Source: Gemmatimonadota bacterium
GTDB lineage: Bacteria > Gemmatimonadota > Gemmatimonadetes > Gemmatimonadales > Gemmatimonadaceae
Direction: 5' to 3'
NCBI GenBank assembly: GCA_021413975.1
Contig: JAIOPJ010000021.1
Span: 1 to 64,000 of the forward strand
Length of the DNA stretch: 64,000 nucleotides
Each line of letters opens with the position of its first letter. The first letter of the stretch is position 1. The notes under the pieces were generated by a model. The model had not been told where the DNA came from, did no database searches, and was given only the letters and a program-made list of their open reading frames with translations. The position numbers and the translations under genes are program-made. Positions 6,380 through 60,899 of this stretch are shown here, one piece after another.

Positions 6380-8848
6380 CTATCGCTGCGGGCGTCCGAG
6401 CAGGCGTCCCAGCGCGGTCCACGCCTCGCCGTACGCGCGCCAATCCCCCACCCGCAGGGCCGCCGCGGCGGCGTCGTACAGCTGCGCGGCGCGCGCGCGG
6501 AAGACCTCCGGCGGGACGTCCCGCCCGGTCGGCTCGACCGACTGGCCGAGCGCGGCGGCGACGGTGCGACCGACGACGGTGCTCGAGCCCTTGAGCACCA
6601 CCACGCCGGCGAGGCGCGGCGGGCCGTCCGCCGGCCACTCGTAGAAGCTCTGGACGAAGGCGATTCCCCCGACCGTGGGGATCGCCTGCACGCGTCCGCG
6701 TCGCGAGTCCTTGAGCGCCCGTCCGAATCCCGCCTGGTCGGCCGCACGCTGCAGCGCCTGGAGGACGCCGGTCCAGTTCGTTTCCGAGGTCGGGGGCAGC
6801 AGCGTGGTGCGCGGCGCGAGACCTCCGCGCGACACGAGCAGTCCGGCCATGCGATCCGCGCTCGACACGGCGATCCCCCAGCCGAGCGTCCCGCTCGAGT
6901 CGAGTTGGTGCAAGGTCGGCGGCCCGGCCGTGAGATCGGCGTCGGCGTCGTCGACCCGCGAGAGCGATCCCCCGGTCAGCACCGCGCCCCGCACGCCGGT
7001 GCGACCGAGGATCGCGCCCTGGATCATCGTCCAGTCCGTGGCCGGAGGCAGTCCGGAGCGGAGCCAGCCCGGTGCGTCCTCGCGCGCGGTGAAGAGCGTG
7101 GGCAGTCGCGCCATCCAACCGCGCATCACCGGATCGGGTGCCGCGACGGGCAGCAGCATCACGCGGCCCGTCTGCGCCTGGACGACGGCGGTGGCCGCGT
7201 GCTGCGCGTAGTGCACGAAGCGCCCGTCGACGAGCAGTCGTTCGGTGAGCGGATAGTGTTCCGCGACCGTGAAGAGCTCGACGACCCAGTAGAGCGAGTC
7301 GCCCCGCACCACCGGCGTCACGGTCTCACCGCGGGCGAGGAACGGCGTGAGCCGGACGAGTCGGTCGATCGCATCGCGCTCGGTGACGATGCGGGGACGT
7401 GGCGACGGGGCGTCCTGCGCCAGCAGTCGCGGGTTCTGCTGGTCCCAGGCCTGCACGAGCCGCTGGAGTCCGGTCTCGAACGGCGGTGCCGCGAGTCGGC
7501 CCAGCGTGTCGGCGACGAGGGCGTAGCTCGGCGCCCCGGGGAAGACGAGCACGCCGCCGATGCCGGGCGACGCCGGCCCGACGCCCGGGAGCGGCAGTCC
7601 CGAGGGGTCGATCGCATTGCTGCGGACGAGGTCCGCCGGCCACGCGGCGCCCGGCGGTGCGTCGGTCGGCGCGCGACGGAGCAGCACGGCATCGAGCCCC
7701 ATCGCGCCGGCCTGCCACGAGAGGGCCGCGACGTCGGCCCCGCGCCGGTCGCGTTCGATGAAGCGCATGAGTGCGGCCGGGTCCCAGCTGCTCACCCACC
7801 GCGCGAGTTGCGCGTCGTCGAGTCGCTCGGGCGGGAGCGTGTCAGGGACCGCGACCTGGTCGACGCCGAAGGCGCGGCGCGTGAAGAGCAGTCGTGTCGC
7901 CTCGTACGGACGACTCCGCTCGGCGGCCGCGCGCGTGTCGCCGCGCGCGGGCGCCGCGGCCGGCAGGATCACCACGCGCGCCACCGGCCCGGCCACGAAG
8001 ACCGCGACGAGCACGCCCCACGCGAGCCGCATGTTCGCGCGCCAGACCGACCAGACGAAGATCACCGCGACGGGCAGGGCGACGAACGAGATGACGGCGA
8101 GATACGGGAGGAGGATCCGGTGATCGAACGCGGTGAACGGTCGCGCGTCGAACAGGACCGTCCCCTCGCCGCTCCCCGCCGACAGGAGCGCGAAGCGGTC
8201 GAGTCGCCATCCCCACGCGATCACCGCGATCGAGAGACCGGCGAGCACGCCGAGGTGGCGGCGGACCCACGTCGAGACATAGAGCCCCCGCTCGTCCCAC
8301 CGCACGCTGGGCGTGACGACGTAGGCGAGGAGCACCGTCATGCCGGTGATCACCAGCAGCACGGACGCGTTCTCGTACAGATGCCGCTCGAACGGCAGCC
8401 AGTTGACGAAGAACCCGAGGTCGCGGTCGAGATACGGCTCGTACTCGGCGAACGGGAGTCCGTGCATCGCCTGCGCGAGCAGCGTCCATTCCTGCTCCGA
8501 GACGGCGAAGAGCGCCGCCACGAGGAGCGCACCGACCAGTGCGAGCAGCGTCAGGCGACGGGTCGGGATCGCCTCGGCGATCTCCACGCCGCCGATCGAC
8601 CGAGGCAGGACGAGGGCGACGATCGATTGCCGGACCGCGAAGAAGTGCGCGAAGGCGAATGCGAAGGCGACAGAGGAGACGGCCGCCCGCAGCATCGTCA
8701 GGTCCAGCAGTCGCTCGCGCCAGAGCGCGTCGGCGCCGAGCGCATGGTGGAACGCCCAGTCGCCGTAGAGCCCGGCGACCCAGCGTCCCACGAGGAGAGC
8801 GAGCGCGAGCCCGGCCAGGAGCCAGAGGAGCCCGCGCCGCGCCTTCAT
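6380..8848 (-). CDS. UPF0182 family membrane protein
   Basis: Large integral membrane protein of the UPF0182 (COG1615) family, whose function is unknown. The 822 residues divide into an N-terminal half with about seven hydrophobic segments and a soluble, probably extracytoplasmic C-terminal half. The first segments lie near residues 8-25, 55-75 and 100-120, and a family-typical region of a hydrophobic stretch followed by WLPFERHLYENA lies near 145-160. Family members are usually 850-1000 residues, so this one is slightly short. The ATG lies one base before the stop of the phosphohexomutase gene upstream, so the two are probably cotranscribed. Confidence 0.85.
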   Translation of the reverse strand: MKARRGLLWLLAGLALALLVGRWVAGLYGDWAFHHALGADALWRERLLDLTMLRAAVSSVAFAFAFAHFFAVRQSIVALVLPRSIGGVEIAEAIPTRRLTLLALVGALLVAALFAVSEQEWTLLAQAMHGLPFAEYEPYLDRDLGFFVNWLPFERHLYENASVLLVITGMTVLLAYVVTPSVRWDERGLYVSTWVRRHLGVLAGLSIAVIAWGWRLDRFALLSAGSGEGTVLFDARPFTAFDHRILLPYLAVISFVALPVAVIFVWSVWRANMRLAWGVLVAVFVAGPVARVVILPAAAPARGDTRAAAERSRPYEATRLLFTRRAFGVDQVAVPDTLPPERLDDAQLARWVSSWDPAALMRFIERDRRGADVAALSWQAGAMGLDAVLLRRAPTDAPPGAAWPADLVRSNAIDPSGLPLPGVGPASPGIGGVLVFPGAPSYALVADTLGRLAAPPFETGLQRLVQAWDQQNPRLLAQDAPSPRPRIVTERDAIDRLVRLTPFLARGETVTPVVRGDSLYWVVELFTVAEHYPLTERLLVDGRFVHYAQHAATAVVQAQTGRVMLLPVAAPDPVMRGWMARLPTLFTAREDAPGWLRSGLPPATDWTMIQGAILGRTGVRGAVLTGGSLSRVDDADADLTAGPPTLHQLDSSGTLGWGIAVSSADRMAGLLVSRGGLAPRTTLLPPTSETNWTGVLQALQRAADQAGFGRALKDSRRGRVQAIPTVGGIAFVQSFYEWPADGPPRLAGVVVLKGSSTVVGRTVAAALGQSVEPTGRDVPPEVFRARAAQLYDAAAAALRVGDWRAYGEAWTALGRLLGRPQR

Positions 8849-8849
8849 C

Positions 8850-10232
8850 TCAGTGGCCGGTCCCCGGCGTGACGTTCACACCCTGCGCCGTGAGCCAGCC
8901 CTCGACCTCCCCGCGGATCGCGGCGAGCCGCGCCTCGCTGTCGGCCTCGAAGCGCATCACGAGGATCGGCTGCGTGTTGGAACTGCGGATGAGTCCCCAC
9001 CCGCCGTCGAAGAGGATCCGGACGCCATCGACGTCGGAGACCTTGTACCGGGCCGCGAAGTGCTTCAGCGCGTCCCGCACCACGACCTCCTTGCGGTCGT
9101 CGGCGCAGTCGATGCGCAGCTCGGGCGTGGAGACGAAGCGGGGGACGTCGGCGAGCAGGTCCTTCACGGTGCGCTTGGAGTCGGCGCAGATGCGCAGCAG
9201 CCGCGCGGCGCCGTAGAGCGCGTCGTCGTGGCCGTAGAACCCCTCGCCGAAGAACATGTGGCCCGACATCTCGCCGGCGATCGGCGCATGCATCGCCTTC
9301 ATCTTGTCCTTGATGAGGGAGTGGCCGGTCTTCCACATGATCGCCTTGCCGCCGGCCTTCTCGATGCCGTCGGGGAGCGCCTGCGAGCACTTCACGTCGA
9401 AGATGATCGCCTGCCCCGCCCCGGTGCGCGCGAGCACGTCGCGGGCGTAGATCAGCAGCAGGTAGTCGCCCCAGATGATCGTGCCGTCGCCGTCGACGAT
9501 GCCGATGCGGTCGGCGTCGCCGTCGAAGCCGATGCCGACCTCGCTCCCGGTGGCGCGCACGCTGCGGATCAGGTCCTGCAGGTTCTCCACGACCGTGGGA
9601 TCGGGATGATGGTTCGGGAAGGTCCCGTCGCTCTCGGCGAAGAGCATCGTCGGGGCGATGCCGAGCGCCTTGAAGAGCGCCGGCGCGACGATGGCGCCGG
9701 CGCCGTTGCCGCAGTCGATCACGACCTTCATGTCCTTGGGCAGCGGACCGATCCGTGCCGCGACGTCGGCGACGTAGCGGTCGACGACGGCCTCGTGCGT
9801 CACCTTGCCGGCACCCTTGGGGAAGACGCCCTTGGCGATGATGTCGCGGAGGTGGAGGATGCCCTCGCCATGCAGCGAGCCGGTGCCCACGCAGCACTTG
9901 AAGCCGTTGTACTCGGGCGGATTGTGCGACCCCGTGATCTGGATGCCGGCGACGACCGGGAGGTTGTGCAGCGCCCAGTAGAGCAGCGGCGTCGGCACGA
10001 CGCCGATGTCGATCACATCGAGGCCGGTCGACGTCAGGCCGCGCACGAGTGCGTCACGCAGCGCATCGCCGCTGGGGCGGTTGTCGCGACCCACCGCGAC
10101 CGCGCCCGAGAGACCGCGCTCGGCGAGGATGATCGCGTAGCCGCGGCCGATCGCCTCGGCCGCCTCGATCGTGAGGTCCTTGCCGTAGATGCCGCGGATG
10201 TCGTACTGGCGGAAGATGCCTGGGGAGATCAT
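8850..10232 (-). CDS. Phosphomannomutase/phosphoglucomutase
   Basis: Interconverts hexose 6- and 1-phosphates for sugar-nucleotide and envelope polysaccharide synthesis. The 460-residue protein has the alpha-D-phosphohexomutase layout. The phosphoserine loop TGSHNP has Ser102, the metal loop DGDADR spans 237-242, the sugar-recognition motif GEMSGH lies near 325, and the phosphate-binding segment RSSNTQP is near the C-terminus. GEMSGH points to the ManB/AlgC-type bifunctional group rather than GlmM. ATG 10232 is favoured because conserved sequence starts at MISPGIFRQYDIRG; the upstream extension is unconserved. Confidence 0.93.
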   Translation of the reverse strand: MISPGIFRQYDIRGIYGKDLTIEAAEAIGRGYAIILAERGLSGAVAVGRDNRPSGDALRDALVRGLTSTGLDVIDIGVVPTPLLYWALHNLPVVAGIQITGSHNPPEYNGFKCCVGTGSLHGEGILHLRDIIAKGVFPKGAGKVTHEAVVDRYVADVAARIGPLPKDMKVVIDCGNGAGAIVAPALFKALGIAPTMLFAESDGTFPNHHPDPTVVENLQDLIRSVRATGSEVGIGFDGDADRIGIVDGDGTIIWGDYLLLIYARDVLARTGAGQAIIFDVKCSQALPDGIEKAGGKAIMWKTGHSLIKDKMKAMHAPIAGEMSGHMFFGEGFYGHDDALYGAARLLRICADSKRTVKDLLADVPRFVSTPELRIDCADDRKEVVVRDALKHFAARYKVSDVDGVRILFDGGWGLIRSSNTQPILVMRFEADSEARLAAIRGEVEGWLTAQGVNVTPGTGH

Positions 10233-10259
10233 TGGGATCGCGGGTGGTGGATGTGCCAA

Positions 10260-10281
10260 GGGGCGCCGCAGGAGGCGCCCC
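10260..10281 (-). terminator. Hairpin after nuoN
   Basis: Perfect 8-bp inverted repeat (GGGGCGCC and GGCGCCCC) with a 6-base loop, placed between the nuoN stop and the phosphohexomutase start. It could end or attenuate the long nuo transcript before the mutase gene. No run of T follows on the minus strand, so a classic intrinsic terminator is not assured. Confidence 0.45.
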
Positions 10282-10311
10282 ATGGAACCTGCCGGGTGAG
10301 AGGCCCCTGCG

Positions 10312-11841
10312 CTACCGCCGGAACTGCGGCTGGCCCATCTGGAGCGCGGGGGAGAACGGATATCGGGGGAAGGCGTTCATCTGCGTCATCTCGACGAGTC
10401 GCGACGGGAAGAGCCCGAGGCCGAGGATGAGCACGACGGTCACGGCGAGGACGGCGCGTGTGAGCGACCCGACCGGCAGCGGCTCCGGCGCACCCTCCGG
10501 CCGCGGCTTCATGAACATCACGCGCACGACCTGCAGGTAGTAGCCGGCGGAGATCACCGAGGTCAGCACCAGGATCACGGCGAGGATCGTCAGTCCGGCC
10601 GGCGCCGCGAGCGCCGCCTGGATCAGGTACCACTTGGCGAAGAAGCCGACGCCGCCGAACACGGGGAAGCCGAGGAGTGCGAGCAGGTACACGGCCATGG
10701 CGGTGGCGAGCCAGGGCCGCACGTGCCAGAGCCCCTCGTAGTCCGAGATCCGCGCGTCGGTCTCGCCCAGCTGCTGCATCGACGCCACCACGGCGAAGGC
10801 ACCGAAGGTCGCGAGGGTGTAGGCCACGACGTAGAACGTGAAGGCGGTGCTCGCGAGCGCCGAGGCCGCCGTCACGGCGACCAGCAGGTACCCGGAATGC
10901 ACGATGCTCGAGTAGGCGAGCATGCGCTTGATGTTCTTCTGCGACAGCGCGACGACGTTGCCGACGACCATCGTCACCACGGCGAGCCACCAGACGGAGG
11001 GCGCCCAACCGGAGAACATGTTGTAGAACGCCTCGTACCAGATGCGCATGAACGTCGCGAAGGCCGCCGCCTTGACCGTCGCGGCCATGAAGGCGCTGAT
11101 CGGCGTGGGCGATCCGTCATAGACGTCGGGCGCCCACATGTGGAACGGGGCCGCCGCGACCTTGAATCCCATGCCGATGAGCATGAGGCCGATGCCGACC
11201 AGCAGCATCGGGTCGTTCGTGAGGTCGAAGCGCCGGATCGCATTGCCGATCTCGACGATCTGCGTCTGGCCGGTGGCGCCGTAGACGAGCGCGATGCCGT
11301 ACAGCAGGAAGCCGGTCGCGAACGCGCCGAGCAGGAAGTACTTGAGCGACGCCTCGGCCGAGCGCGCACTGCGCCGGTTGAGTCCCGCGAGCACGTAGAC
11401 GGCGACCGACATGATCTCGATGCCGAGGAAGACGACCATGAGGTCGCGCGCGCCGGCGAGGATCATCATGCCGGACGTGGCGAAGAGCACCAGCACATGC
11501 GACTCGGCCTGCACGATGCCGTCGCGCACGTTGTGCTCGATCGCGAGCGCGATCGTGCCGATCGCCCCGAGCAGGACGACCAGGTCGACCATCCAGCGGA
11601 ACCCGTCGACGGCGATCACGCCCTTGTCGGAGGCGGTGAGGCCGCTCACGGCCATCCACACGACGAGCCCCATCGTGAGGACGAGCAGGCCGATCGACGC
11701 GAAGCCGACGGTCCGCTGACGCGCGTCGCTGTCGGGCCGCCAGGCGGCCATGAGCATGAGCAGGATCGCACCGGCCACGAGCAGCAGGTCGGGGAGCAGC
11801 GCCGAGGAGAGCTGCACGGGATTCAGGAGATCGAAGGTCAT
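10312..11841 (-). CDS. nuoN: NADH:quinone oxidoreductase subunit N
   Basis: Antiporter-like proton-pumping membrane subunit of complex I. The 509-residue protein is hydrophobic throughout with about 14 predicted membrane helices. It has the Mrp-antiporter signature region AAAPFHMWAPDVYDGSPTP near the middle (about residues 225-245). ATG 11841 is used because the reading frame upstream is charged and unconserved and overlaps nuoM. It is the last gene of the nuoA-N operon, one base after the nuoM stop region. Lysine and glutamate residues expected in the pump channel lie within the hydrophobic helices. Confidence 0.96.
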   Translation of the reverse strand: MTFDLLNPVQLSSALLPDLLLVAGAILLMLMAAWRPDSDARQRTVGFASIGLLVLTMGLVVWMAVSGLTASDKGVIAVDGFRWMVDLVVLLGAIGTIALAIEHNVRDGIVQAESHVLVLFATSGMMILAGARDLMVVFLGIEIMSVAVYVLAGLNRRSARSAEASLKYFLLGAFATGFLLYGIALVYGATGQTQIVEIGNAIRRFDLTNDPMLLVGIGLMLIGMGFKVAAAPFHMWAPDVYDGSPTPISAFMAATVKAAAFATFMRIWYEAFYNMFSGWAPSVWWLAVVTMVVGNVVALSQKNIKRMLAYSSIVHSGYLLVAVTAASALASTAFTFYVVAYTLATFGAFAVVASMQQLGETDARISDYEGLWHVRPWLATAMAVYLLALLGFPVFGGVGFFAKWYLIQAALAAPAGLTILAVILVLTSVISAGYYLQVVRVMFMKPRPEGAPEPLPVGSLTRAVLAVTVVLILGLGLFPSRLVEMTQMNAFPRYPFSPALQMGQPQFRR

Positions 11842-11842
11842 C

Positions 11843-13432
11843 TCAGCGCCCCCCGATCCGGGGGCGCGGCCCCAGCGAACCCATGCGGCCGGCTTCGACG
11901 CCTCGGACCAGCCGCTCGGCGGCGGCCTCGGTCTTCTGGAGCACCGGCCTGGGATAGACACCGAGCCAGAGGATCGCGATGAGCAGCGGCGTCAGAAGGC
12001 CGATCTCGCGCCAGTTGAGGTCGTTGCCCTTGAGGGCCTCGTTCTCGGGCTTCACGAGTGGGTTGTAGATGATGCGTTGGACCGCCCAGAGCAGGTACGC
12101 GGCGGCGAAGATGACGCTGGTCGCGGCGATGATCGTGTAGTACGGCGCCGTCGGGAAGGACCCGATCAGCACCAGGAACTCGCCGACGAAGCCGTTGGTG
12201 CCCGGCACGCCGATCGAGCTGAGCGAGACGATGGTGAGGCAGACGGCGAAGATCGGCATGACCTTGGCGATGCCGCCGAAGTCCTCGATCAGCCGCGTGT
12301 GCCGGCGCTCGTAGATCATGCCGATCAGGAGGAAGAGCGCGCCGGTCGAGATGCCGTGGCTGATGGTGACCATCAGCGCCCCCTGCATCGACTCGGTGGT
12401 CATCGCGAAGATGCCGAGCATGACGAAGCCCAGGTGCGAGACCGACGAGTAGGCGACGAGCTTCTTGAAGTCGGGCTGCACGAGCGCCACGAGCGCGCCG
12501 TACACGATCCCGATCACGGCGAGCACGAGCATGACCATGCGGACGGTCGGGTGCATGGCGACCGCGGGGAAGAGCGGCACCGCGAACCGGACGAAGCCGA
12601 AGGTCCCCATCTTGAGCATGATCGCGGCCAGGATCACCGAGCCGGCGGTGGGTGCCTCGACGTGGGCGTCGGGGAGCCAGGTGTGGAACGGGAACATCGG
12701 CACCTTCACGGCGAACGCGATCGCGAAGGCGCCGAAGAGCCAGAAGCTCCCCGCGAGCGGCATCGTGCGCGCCATGTCGAGGACGGCGTCATAGGCGAAG
12801 ACCGGCGGCCCACCCTGCCCCGCCTTCAGGCCGAGGTACACGATCGCCACGAGCATGAGCAGCGATCCGACCATGGTGTAGAGGGAGAACTTGAGGCTCG
12901 CGTAGAGGCGGCGCTGGCCGCCCCAGATGCCGATGATCAGGTACATCGGCACCAGCATCACTTCCCACATCACGTAGAAGAACACCAGGTCGAGCGCCAT
13001 GAACACGCCGAGCATCCCGGTCGTGAGGATGAGCAGCAGCGCGTAGTACGCATGCGTCTTCACGCGGATGCTCGTCCAGCTCCCGAGCACCGTGAGGGGC
13101 ATGAGGAGCGTGGTGAGCAGGATCAGCATCAGCGCGATGCCGTCGACGCCGACCGTGAAGCGGGCGCCCCACTGCGGGATCCAGGCCGCGTCCACGTAGG
13201 CCTGCCAGTCGGGGCTGACCGTGTCCACCGACCACCAGAGCCCGAGCGAGAGCACCGCTTCGGCGAGGAAGATCCCGAAGGCCAGCGACCGTGCACTGCG
13301 CATGGCGGCGTCGGGGTCCTGCTTCTGCATGCTGCCCTGCAGGACCATGAGCAGCGCACCGAGGAGCGGGAGCGCGAGCAGGGTCGGCAGGATCCAACCG
13401 TTGTAGCCGATTCCGTCGAGGAACTGGGTCAC
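11843..13432 (-). CDS. nuoM: NADH:quinone oxidoreductase subunit M
   Basis: Proton-pumping membrane subunit of complex I. The 529-residue, multi-helix protein shows the MWEVMLVPMYLI motif (about residues 155-166, with the key Glu157) and the antiporter signature VKVPMFPFHTWLPDAHVEAP. GTG at 13432 starts the protein, giving a normal length. It lies between nuoL and nuoN in the standard order, with 11 bases to nuoL and a near-contiguous junction with nuoN. It acts in the inner membrane arm, coupling quinone reduction to proton movement. Confidence 0.97.
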   Translation of the reverse strand: MTQFLDGIGYNGWILPTLLALPLLGALLMVLQGSMQKQDPDAAMRSARSLAFGIFLAEAVLSLGLWWSVDTVSPDWQAYVDAAWIPQWGARFTVGVDGIALMLILLTTLLMPLTVLGSWTSIRVKTHAYYALLLILTTGMLGVFMALDLVFFYVMWEVMLVPMYLIIGIWGGQRRLYASLKFSLYTMVGSLLMLVAIVYLGLKAGQGGPPVFAYDAVLDMARTMPLAGSFWLFGAFAIAFAVKVPMFPFHTWLPDAHVEAPTAGSVILAAIMLKMGTFGFVRFAVPLFPAVAMHPTVRMVMLVLAVIGIVYGALVALVQPDFKKLVAYSSVSHLGFVMLGIFAMTTESMQGALMVTISHGISTGALFLLIGMIYERRHTRLIEDFGGIAKVMPIFAVCLTIVSLSSIGVPGTNGFVGEFLVLIGSFPTAPYYTIIAATSVIFAAAYLLWAVQRIIYNPLVKPENEALKGNDLNWREIGLLTPLLIAILWLGVYPRPVLQKTEAAAERLVRGVEAGRMGSLGPRPRIGGR

Positions 13433-13443
13433 TGTCTATGGCC

Positions 13444-15648
13444 TCAGCGGAAGGAGAAGGCGGAGAGCACGGAGAGCACGCCGATGAGCAGCACCCAGGC
13501 GTACGTGCCGACGCGGCCCGACTGCAGCTGCGATCCGGCCCAGCCCACCGCGCGCACCACCAGCGCACTCCCGTTCACCAGGAGCCCGTCGATGATGCCC
13601 GTGTCGATCCCCTTCCACAGCAGAGTGCGGGAGATGCCGAGCGTCGGCTTGACCACGGTCTTGTCGTAGGCCTCGTCGACGTACCACTTGTGGAGCAGGG
13701 TCTTCTCGATGCCTTCCTCGGCCTTGGCGTCCTTGGCCGCCACGAGCGCCTCGGGTTTGAGCCGCGTCCACGCGATCGCGATGCCGATGGCCGCGATGGC
13801 GATGGCGATCGCGATGAGCGTCCACTCGGTGGCGTGGGAGAGGTGGAGCCCCTCCTCGCCGAGCGTGATCCCGGTGCCCTCGGCGAGGACCGGCTCGAGC
13901 CACGCGTGCAACTGCTCGCTGTACTCCCCGGCGTAGAGCGCGGGCATGTTCACGAACCCGCCCACGGCGGAGAGCACGCCCAGCACCACGAGCGGACCCG
14001 TCATGATCCACGGGGCTTCCTTCAGGTGCGCGGCCTCCTTCTCGCCGGTCCGGTTGGGACCGTGGAAGGTGTAGAGCATCATGCGCGTCATGTAGATGGC
14101 GGTCATGAGCGCGGCGGCCAGCCCGAGCACGTACACGCCGTACAGCACCACGCTGCCGGGGATGCCCAGCCAGTGCGCCTCGGCGAGCGTCGACCCATGG
14201 GTCCTGGCGAAGACCGAGGCGAGGATCTCGTCCTTGGAGAAGAAGCCGGAGAAGGGCGGGATGCCCGCGATCGACAGCGTGGCGATCCACATGAGCACGA
14301 ACGTCACCGGCATGTGCTTCCGGAGCCCGCCCATGTTGCGCATGTCCTGCGCGTCCTCGTGGCTGTGCGTCGCATGATACGCCTTGTGCATGGCGTAGAT
14401 CACCGACCCCGACCCGAGGAAGAGGAGCGCCTTGAAGAAGGCGTGCGTCATGAGGTGGAAGACGCCCGCGGAGTAGGCGCCGACGCCGACACCCACGAAC
14501 ATGTAGCCGAGCTGCGAGACCGTGGAGTAGGCCAGGACCTTCTTGATGTCCCACTGCTTGAGGCCGATCGTCGCCGCGAAGACCGCCGTGAGCGCCCCGA
14601 CGACGGCGACGGTCAGCTGCGCGACCGGGGCCATCGAGAAGAGCACCGCGCTGCGCGCGATCAGGTACACGCCCGCCGTGACCATCGTCGCGGCATGGAT
14701 CAGCGCCGAGACCGGCGTCGGGCCCGCCATCGCGTCGGGGAGCCAGACGAAGAGCGGGATCTGCGCCGACTTGCCGGTGGCGCCGAGGAACAGGAAGAGG
14801 CAGATCGCGGTGACGAGCGCGCCGCCGAGCTGCGCGCCCATGGCCGCCTCGCCCACGCCGGCGAACGTGAGGGTCCCGAAGTTCGCGAACATCAGGAACA
14901 TCGCGACCAGGAATCCGAAGTCACCGATCCGGTTGACGATGAACGCCTTCTTGCCCGCGTCGGCGTTCGCCTTGTCGCTGAACCAGAAGCCGATCAGCAG
15001 GTAGGAGCAGAGCCCGACCCCTTCCCACCCCACGAACATCAGCGGGTAGCTCGAGCCCATGACGAGCAGGAGCATGAAGAAGATGAACAGGTTGAGATAC
15101 GCGAAGTAGCGCGGGTATCCCGGGTCGTCCTGCATGTAGCCGACGCTGAAGATGTGGATCAGCGTGCCGATGCCGGTGACGATGCTCATCATCACCAGCG
15201 AGAGCTGGTCGATCTGGAAGGCGGCGTCGACGCTGAGCTTGCCGGCCGGCATCCAAGAGAAGAGCGTGAGCACGTAGGGCTCGCGCAGGGCGTTGTCGAC
15301 GACCCACACCTGATACAGGATGGCGAGCGTCATCGCGAACGAGAGCGCGAGCACACCCGGCCCGATCAGCGAGACGAGCGCCGCCGCAGGATGCCGCGCC
15401 GCGTGATGCCCGTCGTCATGACCGTGGTCCGCATGGCCGTCCCCTGTGCCCCCTGTGCCCCTGTGGTGACCGTCGTGCCCATGCCCGCCCGCCGACGGAT
15501 CCGCCGGCCCAGGATGCCCCGCCGCGCGCAGCGAGAGCAGCCCGTTCAGCACGAAGCCGACGAGCGGGAACACCGGAATGAGCCAAGCGAACCGGGCGAT
15601 CGTGTCGGCCAGCGGATGGCCTGTGGCGAGAGGTTCGGTCTGCATCAT
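13444..15648 (-). CDS. nuoL: NADH:quinone oxidoreductase subunit L with His-rich loop
   Basis: Largest antiporter-like pump subunit of complex I. The 734-residue protein has the signature [18 protein letters not shown] and about 16 helices including the C-terminal lateral helix. ATG 15648 overlaps the nuoK stop (ATGA); the longer frame upstream overlaps nuoK and was rejected. The loop after the first helix is odd: residues 45-86 hold 11 histidines in Gly/His/Asp-rich low-complexity sequence. The DNA for part of it resembles the dispersed palindromic repeat of this genome. The loop probably faces an aqueous side and might bind metal; its effect on pumping is unknown. Confidence 0.96.
15440..15468 (-). 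repeat. Repeat-like arm inside nuoL
   Basis: Read on the minus strand this 29-base stretch runs CACCACAGGGGCACAGGGGG and onward. It matches 23 of 29 positions of the arm of the palindromic repeat near 49.75 kb. It is in frame within nuoL and encodes part of the His/Gly-rich loop after the first helix. It is a single arm with no inverted partner nearby. Confidence 0.5.
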
Positions 15649-58170: not shown

Positions 58171-58995
58171 TCAGGGAGCGCTCTCGGCCGGGCGCACCAG
58201 CCACTGCACGATCGCCTCGGCCGCCTCGGCCGGGTCGCGGAACCCGATCCGCATCACCGGCACCGCCGAGACCAACCGGCTGAGCGCGCGCGCCGCCCGG
58301 ACCCCATGATCGGCGAAGTTCCACGTACCGGCCGCGATCTCCACGAGCGCCTCCGACGGCGCGCACCGTTCGAAGGTGAGCCCGGTGCCTCGATGTGCCG
58401 CGGGCAACAGGATCGCCCGCAGCGGGAGCGTACTCCCTTCGATCCGGTCGTCCACGGCGATCTCCTTCTTCGCCACCTCCAGGAGCCAGCTCGCCGGCTT
58501 CTCCTCGCCCGGGTCGGGTCGCACTTCGGGCACGCGTGGAAAGGGGATCACCTCGAGCCGTTCGGGATCGACCGGGAGGATGTCGTCCGAGAGGAAGCTC
58601 GCGCCGCGGTCGCAGAGCGCCGTGACGATCGTGCTCTTCCCCCTCCCGCGCTGCCCCGCCACCAACACCGCCCCACCCTGCCATCCCGCGGCGGCTCCGT
58701 GCAGCCAGAGCAGGTCGGGACGCGCGGCGATCATCGCCTCGAGCACGCGCTGGCGCGCCCATCGCAATGCGGCGCGCTCGTCCGCTCGCTCGACGCCCTG
58801 CCCGCTCGAGTCGCGACAGATGAATCGCGCCCCCTCCTGCCGTATGTCGATCTCGAGGACCGACTCGGCACCCTGCACGCCGAGCATGTGACGGAACGTG
58901 CTGCCGAGCGAGCGCGTGATCTCATCATGATCCGATCGGATCACGACCTGATGGGCTCCGAACGCCACCTCGACGGACCGGTCCCGGCCGCTCAC
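58171..58995 (-). CDS. HPr-kinase-like P-loop protein of RiPP-like locus
   Basis: A 274-residue kinase-like protein. The Walker A motif GQRGRGKST lies at residues 114-122, preceded by LHGAAAG and followed by FLSDD, a pattern like HPr kinase C-terminal domains. Similar proteins occur in lasso-peptide and other RiPP clusters, where one phosphorylates the peptide C-terminus (paeninodin type); this role here is inferred. It starts at GTG 58995, overlapping the stop of the PqqD-like gene (GTGA). A precursor-like peptide is encoded on the other strand 600 bases away. Confidence 0.78.
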   Translation of the reverse strand: MSGRDRSVEVAFGAHQVVIRSDHDEITRSLGSTFRHMLGVQGAESVLEIDIRQEGARFICRDSSGQGVERADERAALRWARQRVLEAMIAARPDLLWLHGAAAGWQGGAVLVAGQRGRGKSTIVTALCDRGASFLSDDILPVDPERLEVIPFPRVPEVRPDPGEEKPASWLLEVAKKEIAVDDRIEGSTLPLRAILLPAAHRGTGLTFERCAPSEALVEIAAGTWNFADHGVRAARALSRLVSAVPVMRIGFRDPAEAAEAIVQWLVRPAESAP

Positions 58996-59336
58996 ACGAG
59001 TTCGAGCAGGGCGAGCGTCCCGAGTTGCCCGATCACGGCGTGCACGTCTGCCAGCACCGCGTCGACCGGATGGCCGACCGCCGAACTCAGCTCGCGCGCG
59101 ATGTCGGCGACCGTCCGCGTGCCGTCGCAGAGATCCCAGACCGCCCAGGCGGAGGTGTTCAGCGTGTGGACCACCTGCCTCCCTTCGTGGAAGAGCAGCA
59201 TCTCGGCGTCACCCAGCGGGAACTCCTTCACGGCCGATCCCCGGACGACCCGACTGCCGTCGCCCACCGCGAAGGGGCGATTCGCCGGGAGTTCGTCCGG
59301 CGCGGGATCGACGGAACTCGGATCGGTGCTGCTCAT
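58992..59336 (-). CDS. PqqD-like RiPP recognition protein
   Basis: A 114-residue protein of the PqqD family. The C-terminal 85 residues have the winged-helix pattern: LFHEGRQVVHTLNTSAWAVW, then DGTRTVADIARELSSAVG and DVHAVIGQL. These domains bind leader peptides in RiPP biosynthesis. The N-terminal 30 residues are acidic and unconserved. ATG 59336 is clear. It is the first gene of a two-gene operon with the HPr-kinase-like protein, divergent from the short peptide gene at 59597. Confidence 0.82.
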   Translation of the reverse strand: MSSTDPSSVDPAPDELPANRPFAVGDGSRVVRGSAVKEFPLGDAEMLLFHEGRQVVHTLNTSAWAVWDLCDGTRTVADIARELSSAVGHPVDAVLADVHAVIGQLGTLALLELV

Positions 59337-59596
59337 GTCGGAACTCGTTCACAGGGCTGAGAGGTGCGACCGAAGGGGGGGAATATACGGAGGTCCGGGC
59401 TGAGTCCGCGCGGGCGCCGGCGCCGCAACTGACGGCTCGACTCTGTGGTCCCGCCGCCACAGAATGACCTCGACGTAGCCTCGTATACGTATGTGGTTCA
59501 AGGAGTTACGGACACGTGTACTGGCCCCAATCTTGCATCACACCCAATCATCCGCGCGGTCGCGCGAGGCGCATTCCGACTTCAGGGGGGTAGCGA
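59337..59596. other. Divergent spacer of RiPP-like locus
   Basis: About 260 bases separate the PqqD-like gene (minus) from the peptide gene (plus). The only clear signal is a purine-rich GGGGGG ribosome binding site at the right end. A small palindrome ATACGTAT lies near 59486. The spacer probably holds two promoters, but none can be placed with confidence. Confidence 0.4.
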
Positions 59597-59776
59597 ATGG
59601 ACATGGAGAAGATGGCTGCGAGCTTGTCCGCTTCACGGACGGCGGTGAGTCGTCGCGCGCTGGTCAAGGCCGGCTGGGTCGTGCCGGTGGTGCTCGCGGT
59701 GGGGATCCCGCGAAACGCGCTCGCGCAGACGGGTTCCGACGCCGGCGTACTGATCGATCCAGGCCAGGACACCTGA
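59597..59776 (+). CDS. Short precursor-like peptide, 59 residues
   Basis: A 59-codon gene, ATG 59597 to TGA 59776, with GGGGGG seven bases upstream. The peptide has a twin-arginine-like motif SRRALVK (residues 18-24), a hydrophobic stretch AGWVVPVVLAVGIP (25-38), and an A-x-A-like cleavage site ALAQ (41-44). The C-terminal tail, residues 44-59 (QTGSDAGVLIDPGQDT), is acidic and Gly-rich and ends in Thr. A strong terminator follows at once. It is most likely the substrate of the neighbouring PqqD-like, HPr-kinase-like and nucleotidyltransferase proteins, with the tail as core. Alternatively it is a small Tat-exported protein. The function is inferred. Confidence 0.7.
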   Translation: MDMEKMAASLSASRTAVSRRALVKAGWVVPVVLAVGIPRNALAQTGSDAGVLIDPGQDT

Positions 59777-59785
59777 GGCCGCCCG

Positions 59786-59820
59786 AACGGGGACCCTGAA
59801 TGGGGTCCCCGTTCTTGTTT
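59786..59820 (+). terminator. Intrinsic terminator after precursor peptide gene
   Basis: Inverted repeat AACGGGGACCC / GGGTCCCCGTT (11 bp perfect, loop TGAATG), followed by CTTGTTT. It starts nine bases after the peptide stop. The hairpin and T-rich tail match a Rho-independent terminator, supporting independent expression of the short peptide gene. Confidence 0.85.
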
Positions 59821-60899
59821 CAGGGCTCCGGCACGCGCCCGGCGAACGTCCGCATCACCGACCGCGTGAACTCGATCACTCTCGCGGGCCACGAGCGCTC
59901 GTCGGTGAGCACACGGACCCAGGCGATCGCGACCCAGTTCGGCAGGAGCGCATCGTCCGTGACGCGCAGGGCGAGCCCCCTGATCGCGGCGAGCAGCAGC
60001 CGATCCTCCAACGGCCCGACTCCGGCCGTGCGGCGCAAGGCCGCGAGCGCGACGTCGCTCACGTCCGCGCCCACCATGACCTGCGCGGCCCGCAGACCCG
60101 CGTACATCGCGCGCTCCACGCCGGCGCTGTCGCGGACCGCCGCCGCCCAGTCGACCGCCGCTTCGCGACGACGCGTCACCTCCGCGATATCGCGCAGGGC
60201 CGACAGGCCGCCCGCGAACCGATTGGCGAGCGCGAGGTGCAACGTGAGGTGGATCAGGAGGTCCGAGGGGGCGAGCGTCGCGACCGGCCGCCCCGCGAGC
60301 AACTCGGGATGTGCACGCGCCGTCAGCGTCTCGGACGAGACGCCCAGGGGGATCCAGAGCGGCAGAAGGCGGTGGTGCAGCTCAACCGTCACGGAGCCGC
60401 GCCTGTAGGGCACGAGATGGTGCAGGTTGTCGAGATACCACTCCCGCGGTCGGTACCACTCGTCGGGAGTGAATCCGATCTCCTCCAGGACTTGGGCGGC
60501 CTCGAGGACCTGCCCCGCCGGGACCATCAGGTCGAGGTCGTGCATGGCGCGCAGCCCGACGTCGCGGTAGACGGGCTCCAGCAGCGCGGCGCCCTTGAGC
60601 ACGACGACGGGGATGGCGCGCAGCTCGAGCGCGGAGAGGACCTCCGAGAGCGTCGCGAGCAGCAGTGCGTTCTTGGCGCTCACCGCGTAGTAGATCCGCT
60701 GCAGCTCCGCCAACGGCTCGGCGGGGATCCCATGGTCGCGCGGGTCGCGCGCGATCGCGCTCCGTAGTTGTCCGGCGACGCCAAGTCGCGTGGCGGCCCC
60801 GACGACGCGCGGCCACTCCTCGGCGGTGAGGATCGGCGATGCCGGAGGCCCGTCGGCGCGACAGACATCGAACAGCACCGCGCGTTCGCGTGGATCCAT
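59820..60899 (-). CDS. Uncharacterised nucleotidyltransferase (NTP_transf_5-like)
   Basis: A 359-residue nucleotidyltransferase-fold protein. The core VVLKGAALLEPVYRD (about 99-113) and HDLDLMVP (120-127), with catalytic aspartates 121 and 123, matches the NTP_transf_5-type family often seen in lasso-peptide and other RiPP clusters. The C-terminal half is helical. ATG 60899 was chosen since sequence upstream is unconserved. The gene lies 23 bases after the sdh-linked hypothetical gene on the same strand and may be read through from the sdh operon. It also converges with the precursor gene across the terminator. Confidence 0.8.
   Translation of the reverse strand: MDPRERAVLFDVCRADGPPASPILTAEEWPRVVGAATRLGVAGQLRSAIARDPRDHGIPAEPLAELQRIYYAVSAKNALLLATLSEVLSALELRAIPVVVLKGAALLEPVYRDVGLRAMHDLDLMVPAGQVLEAAQVLEEIGFTPDEWYRPREWYLDNLHHLVPYRRGSVTVELHHRLLPLWIPLGVSSETLTARAHPELLAGRPVATLAPSDLLIHLTLHLALANRFAGGLSALRDIAEVTRRREAAVDWAAAVRDSAGVERAMYAGLRAAQVMVGADVSDVALAALRRTAGVGPLEDRLLLAAIRGLALRVTDDALLPNWVAIAWVRVLTDERSWPARVIEFTRSVMRTFAGRVPEP

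Follow-up and report, generated by a model that had tools for sequence, protein, structure and literature searches.

Here we describe a short gene in a Gemmatimonadota genome that probably encodes the precursor from which an adjacent cassette would make a RiPP-like peptide; the cassette comprises genes for a PqqD/RRE protein, an HprK-like kinase and an NTP_transf_5 nucleotidyltransferase. The gene lies at 59597..59776 (+) of the 64,000-nucleotide stretch of DNA that we analysed (hereafter the window), and its predicted leader has the form of a Tat signal with an RRE-binding motif embedded in the hydrophobic region.

A conserved peptide gene and its neighbouring cassette

The open reading frame runs from ATG to TGA and encodes the 59-residue product MDMEKMAASLSASRTAVSRRALVKAGWVVPVVLAVGIPRNALAQTGSDAGVLIDPGQDT. 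A G-rich, Shine-Dalgarno-like AGGGGGG (59584..59590, +) stands 6 nt before the ATG, with GGGGGGGAG, GAGGAGG and GGGGGGAG as its equivalents in homologues, and 8 nt past the stop there is a rho-independent terminator stem-loop (59785..59814, +) with a perfect 13-bp stem, a 4-nt loop and a following TTGTTT, the stretch having a folding energy of -33.9 kcal/mol (z -4.55). Strong hairpins also occur directly past the peptide-gene stop in genomes G003 and G006; no such hairpin follows the stop in G051 and G316, where pqqD is the next gene. The product carries a twin-arginine motif, SRRALVK (residues 18-24; 59648..59668, +), a hydrophobic region, a signal-peptidase-like site between A43 and Q44 of A41-L42-A43-Q44 (59717..59728, +), the AQ of which is kept in the four closest homologues, and a variable 16-residue tail, the proposed core (59726..59773, +), with Asp at positions 48, 54 and 58 and the ending GQDT. 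An earlier sequence-only reading had listed the frame, ribosome binding site, stop and perfect terminator as well as SRRALVK, the hydrophobic span, the ALA-Q site and the acidic 16-residue tail ending in GQDT, and all of these are present as it described them.

That reading also took the frame to be a real, short, conserved gene, a view to be abandoned if homologues were lacking and dN/dS lay near 1. On checking, homologues with the same neighbours were found in four other genomes (G003, G006, G051 and G316), and pN/pS over 31 codons of the signal region, from RR to SDA, is 0.31 between the window's own genome (G000) and G003, 0.08 between G000 and G006, and 0.27 between G003 and G006. The open reading frame at 59597-59776 is therefore a real, conserved coding gene. 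Its signal region is under purifying selection and its tail is hypervariable among homologues, as anticipated by the suggestion that the tail evolves separately from a Tat-type signal. A peptide profile search of 395 genomes yielded one true match beyond its four seeds (G316, confirmed by its neighbours); the other matches looked like noise, and the weak matches L006-L026 were rejected for the absence of the neighbour genes. A separate contig scan returned only the three Gemmatimonadota homologues already known; three homologous loci have named copies, which are Gemmatimonadota MAGs, and searches of plasmids for relatives gave nothing useful.

On the opposite strand to the peptide gene lie the overlapping genes for a discrete PqqD/RRE protein of 114 aa (58992..59336, -; PF05402 E 9e-13) and an HprK-like kinase of 274 aa (58171..58995, -; TIGR04352 E 2.6e-15, below the model's cut-off). 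Convergent with the peptide gene is that of a 359-aa NTP_transf_5 nucleotidyltransferase (59820..60899, -; PF14907 E 1.9e-46), which is syntenic in G003 and G051. The region from 58.0 to 61.5 kb holds these four cassette genes only, and its flanks encode a SnoaL-like protein and respiratory genes. The peptide gene is flanked by pqqD, hprK and NTP_transf_5 in G003 and by pqqD and hprK in G006; all four genes are co-directional in G051, and pqqD and hprK adjoin the peptide gene in G316. An NTP_transf_5 gene was not detected near the G006 peptide and is therefore not universal in the cassette. In G003 (L027, 8971-13122) and G051 (L029, 5109-9036) the neighbours of the cassette include a run of genes that, from inspection of their N-termini by eye, are type IV pilin-like.

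An HprK-like kinase is encoded beside the peptide in 5/5 of the closest loci, which bears out the sequence-only reading in naming a kinase as the partner, although that reading had overlooked the flanking RRE, kinase and nucleotidyltransferase genes themselves. Modelled with pLDDT 86, the kinase shows a PEPCK/HprK fold, and H99, G114, G117, G119, K120, S121, D137 and D138 are invariant across the kinase family; all eight correspond, at a constant offset of 49, to the eight-residue BsfK motif given as H148...D187 (PMC10368454).

Leader motif, RRE recognition and fused relatives

Discrete RREs of lasso peptides and of linear polyphosphorylated peptides (LPP; the Paenibacillus alginolyticus lpp system of Popov et al. 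2026, PMC13381572) bind the leader motif [Y/W]xxPx[L/V/I/F/A] (PMC13381572). The hydrophobic GWVVP stretch of the window peptide fits this motif, a point missed in the sequence-only reading: W27-x-x-P30-x-V32 (59675..59692, +), within the Tat-like signal, has the form [Y/W]xxPx[V/L], and we propose that it binds the RRE. A scan for short RR-hydrophobic open reading frames near discrete PqqD genes, in which no aromatic residue was required, gave 10 genuine peptides (G003, G006, G051, G316, G332, G334, G352, G204, G325 and G361) once other frames had been dropped by eye as chance, overlapping or opposite-strand frames; W or Y stands three residues before the conserved Pro in all 10, as it does in the window peptide. 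A scan requiring [WYF]xxP added peptides from G338, G132 (two) and G040, and a Tat control scan added one from G038, bringing the stand-alone total to 16 with that of the window. The two G132 peptides (L103, G132:C10, 9791-10312) are of the RR-YxxP type and lie in tandem after one PqqD, the second having a Met-Gly repeat tail, GMGMGMGMGMGMG.

Other Gemmatimonadota have a PqqD protein with its own C-terminal segment of RR, a hydrophobic stretch, P and an AxA-like site, and after it a variable tail that is often rich in Cys. About 24 proteins from about 20 of the 395 genomes match a profile built from PqqD and tail along almost all of its length, and most of the fused proteins adjoin HprK-like and often NTP_transf_5 genes, without a lasso cyclase. 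All relatives, stand-alone or fused, have the twin arginine. Comparison by hhalign shows the PqqD domains of the window family to be homologous to those of the fused set (probability 98.9); between the stand-alone peptides and the fused tails hhalign gives a modest probability of 64, so that these two are linked by their context, motif and register instead. Among the fused tails, that of L134, SGGDTLPVDPGPD, is similar to the tail in the window, TGSDAGVLIDPGQDT. The fused proteins link RRE and peptide. The Cys-rich tails of L105, L104, L111, L110, L099, L096, L097 and L137, all of them PqqD proteins that carry an RR segment at the C terminus, resemble small disulfide-rich secreted peptides. 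By eye, the fused-type cassettes at L095 (6669-9107) and L096 (8060-8842) stand beside surface-polysaccharide-like genes (MBOAT-like, nucleotide-sugar dehydratase-like and CpsB-like phosphatase), and LPP clusters in Bacilli are likewise found beside surface-polysaccharide genes.

The motif separates the stand-alone peptides from both comparison sets: W or Y occurs at the corresponding position in 0/23 fused tails (F in one), and [WY]xxP in the corresponding region of 0/27 ordinary Tat signals from related genomes, although the sequences are related and these counts, like those of Asp and Ser given below, are not independent events. A parallel pattern is seen in the RREs. In LppB the leader Tyr is reported to bond with Asp70 and the Pro kink with Asn33 (Popov et al. 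2026, PMC13381572); Asn60 and Asp97 of the window PqqD have the same spacing of 37, an equivalence drawn by spacing only. In our alignment the Asp97 column holds Asp in 16/16 discrete RREs of stand-alone-peptide loci (among them that of G046, included for its close relationship to G040 and G038 with its peptide unread) and, among lasso RREs from the same phylum, in 14/14 that could be scored, as against 0/23 fused RREs, where the residue is hydrophobic in all 23. An acidic residue does occur in the fused RREs 3-4 positions ahead of this column, so their loss of Asp is alignment-dependent. Loss of both the aromatic residue and the Asp upon fusion is what would be expected if both serve recognition in trans.

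When PqqD of the window was modelled with AlphaFold2 (pLDDT 84), the PDB entry that matched best was that of TbiB1 in complex with a lasso leader peptide (5v1v, TM 0.85 by target). In the genomes where both could be read (G000, G003, G006 and G316), W stands in the Tat peptide and Y in the lasso precursor. Bacillota show the opposite pairing, with Y in LPP and W in paeninodins; the window RRE, though paired with a W peptide, retains the Asn/Asp pair that goes with Y binding. In G316 the stand-alone Tat-WxxP cassette (L114, G316:C55, 8500-20000), whose peptide has a long, basic tail, adjoins, back to back, a lasso-type cluster comprising the precursor MYRKPELQRYGSFANLT, a second HprK, AsnB, an ABC transporter and NTP_transf_5.

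The peptide might instead be an ordinary small Tat substrate or a membrane-anchored peptide, with the PqqD, kinase and nucleotidyltransferase genes serving some other substrate. An RR motif, a hydrophobic region and an AxA site suffice for a Tat substrate, all three are present and the genome encodes TatC; there are also small Tat-target proteins whose mature part is short, and TIGR02811, a model of this kind, weakly matches the relative at L107. The window peptide itself matched no Tat or RiPP family model and did not reach PF10518. We consider this explanation unlikely, however, given that peptide and cassette have stayed linked in five genomes, that the RR segment is fused to PqqD at other loci and that [WY]xxP is absent from all 27 Tat controls; the covariation of RRE residues and the fixed Ser described below speak against it as well.

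Candidate phosphorylation site and proposed pathway

A Ser in near-constant register with the leader Pro is a shared feature of these peptides. In the window it is Ser47 (59735..59737, +), at Pro30+17, our proposed phospho-acceptor. Ser occurs at Pro+17 in 11/16 stand-alone peptides, a value reached by 0/5000 shuffles; it is absent from exactly that position in the other 5/16, and all 16 have some Ser at +14 to +19 from the Pro. The fused tails have Ser at Pro+15 in 19/23 cases (Ser or Thr in 22/23), again with 0/5000 shuffles. Counted from published positions, the phosphorylated Ser3 lies at Pro+15 in LppA (PMC13381572) and at Pro+16 in BsfA (PMC10368454).

The sequence-only reading had favoured the C-terminal Thr/Ser-type end as the kinase target. 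Here the kinase would modify Thr59, much as PadeK and PsmK modify a C-terminal Ser (PMC9266682), and the window and G006 peptides do end in DT, that of G204 in T and that of G051 in S. These four are, however, the only ones to finish in Ser or Thr among the 15 stand-alone members whose end could be read; what is kept instead is the Ser past the predicted cleavage site, and LppK and BsfK hit core Ser3. We regard modification of Thr59, as by the paeninodin kinases, as quite improbable; the fixed Ser register and the scarcity of C-terminal Ser/Thr place the likely target at Ser47.

In the pathway that we propose, the RRE (58992-59336) would first clamp the leader through W27-x-x-P30-x-V32, a motif that lies within the Tat-type signal, and would in this way also keep the peptide from early export. 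It would then present the tail to the kinase (58171-58995), by which Ser47 would be phosphorylated, perhaps several times, and the nucleotidyltransferase (59820-60899) may decorate the phosphate, a role suggested by the precedent of PsmN, which has been linked to hexose addition in pseudomycoidin (PMC9266682). Finally the peptide would be released, exported by Tat and cut at ALA-Q by the housekeeping signal peptidase, giving a linear modified product of about 16 residues. The LPP leader peptidase is a signal-peptidase homologue that prefers the phosphorylated precursor (PMC13381572), which makes use of a housekeeping signal peptidase a small step. Tat, too, must read the hydrophobic region in which the binding motif sits, and the two uses would therefore need ordering.

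Full-text searches of a collection of open-access papers found none joining Tat or twin-arginine signals with RREs, and an export signal that would double as an RRE/kinase handle is a combination that we found described nowhere in those texts; RiPP precursors with Sec signals have already been called highly unusual (PMC12452194). We see as evenly poised the broader proposal of a Gemmatimonadota class of phosphopeptide RiPPs in which a single element is both Tat export signal and RRE-bound leader, in which the RRE is elsewhere fused to its own precursor with leader-binding Asp and leader aromatic lost together, and to which the cognate peptides of at least some HPr-rel-A kinase systems would belong. 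If true, kinase-RRE linear phosphopeptides extend beyond Bacillota, a Tat signal stands in the leader's place, and the RRE-precursor fusions are a natural experiment on leader recognition. Those looking for the missing peptides of HprK-PqqD cassettes should consider short RR-[WY]xxP open reading frames, which are easily missed by gene callers.

Comparison with known systems

The closest parallels are with LPP. Both systems have a discrete RRE (here with a TbiB1-like model), an HprK-like kinase with its catalytic residues (here all eight of the BsfK motif) and an NTP transferase gene, which we liken to LppN by gene type; neither has a cyclase, and they share a [Y/W]xxPx[V] leader motif, a variable C terminus and a Ser soon after the leader in near-identical register (Pro+15 in LPP, Pro+17 here). 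The LPP leader is cut off by a signal-peptidase-like enzyme. In contrast to LPP, the leader here is a Tat-type signal with RR, W takes the place of Y, relatives fuse RRE and precursor into one protein, and the host belongs to Gemmatimonadota, whereas LPP has been described as restricted to Bacillota (PMC13381572). A SipW-like signal peptidase (LppS) was not found beside the cassette at 58.0-61.5 kb, nor an MsbA-like transporter (LppD) among the cassette neighbours, and no exporter of any kind lies beside it. Owing to the absence of LppS and LppD from beside the cassette and to a host outside Bacillota, we have not filed the cassette as LPP.

Phosphorylated lasso peptides such as paeninodin, pseudomycoidin and Bsf (PMC9266682, PMC10368454) likewise combine a B1/RRE protein, a nucleotidyltransferase, an HprK-like kinase with the same eight residues and a YxxPxL-type leader, but the window system differs in its Tat-type leader, in having no lasso core features and in having no macrolactam cyclase or B2 protease alongside. 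No AsnB-type cyclase is encoded in the window, the matches in its own genome being on contigs C5 and C7, and the B2 protease model PF13471 has no match above cut-off in the genome and one weak match on C6. A lasso peptide cassette was ruled out on the lack of cyclase and B2 alongside, the genome's lasso-type cluster being separate on C7. That cluster (L121, G000:C7:116000-134000, at about 7600-13900) has its own PqqD, AsnB, HprK and NTP_transf_5 and three precursor-like open reading frames (YRPPRL, YLPPRL and YLAPTL). It could in principle provide a cyclase and leader peptidase in trans, making the window peptide a lasso precursor, and the RRE and kinase of the cassette are lasso-like. We hold this to be very improbable: no cyclase lies beside the cassette at the closest homologous loci (G003, G006 and G051), the tail is without conserved ring residues, the C7 precursors are of the YxxPxL type without RR, and the cassette brings an RRE and a kinase of its own.

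The pairing of an HprK-related kinase with a PqqD chaperone recalls the HPr-rel-A systems (TIGR04352, TIGR04353), from which the window proteins differ in falling below the model cut-offs (kinase 56.3 bits against 200 for TIGR04352, PqqD 14.7 against 35). The relative G204 (L107) does pass the TIGR04353 cut-off, and a Tat-YxxP peptide lies beside its kinase. Bufferins (PMC12452194) resemble the system that we propose here in that a RiPP leader is also an export signal and the partner contains an RRE; theirs, however, is a Sec signal, with an MNIO enzyme, a DUF2063 partner and Cys chemistry, whereas the window combines a Tat-type signal with a kinase.
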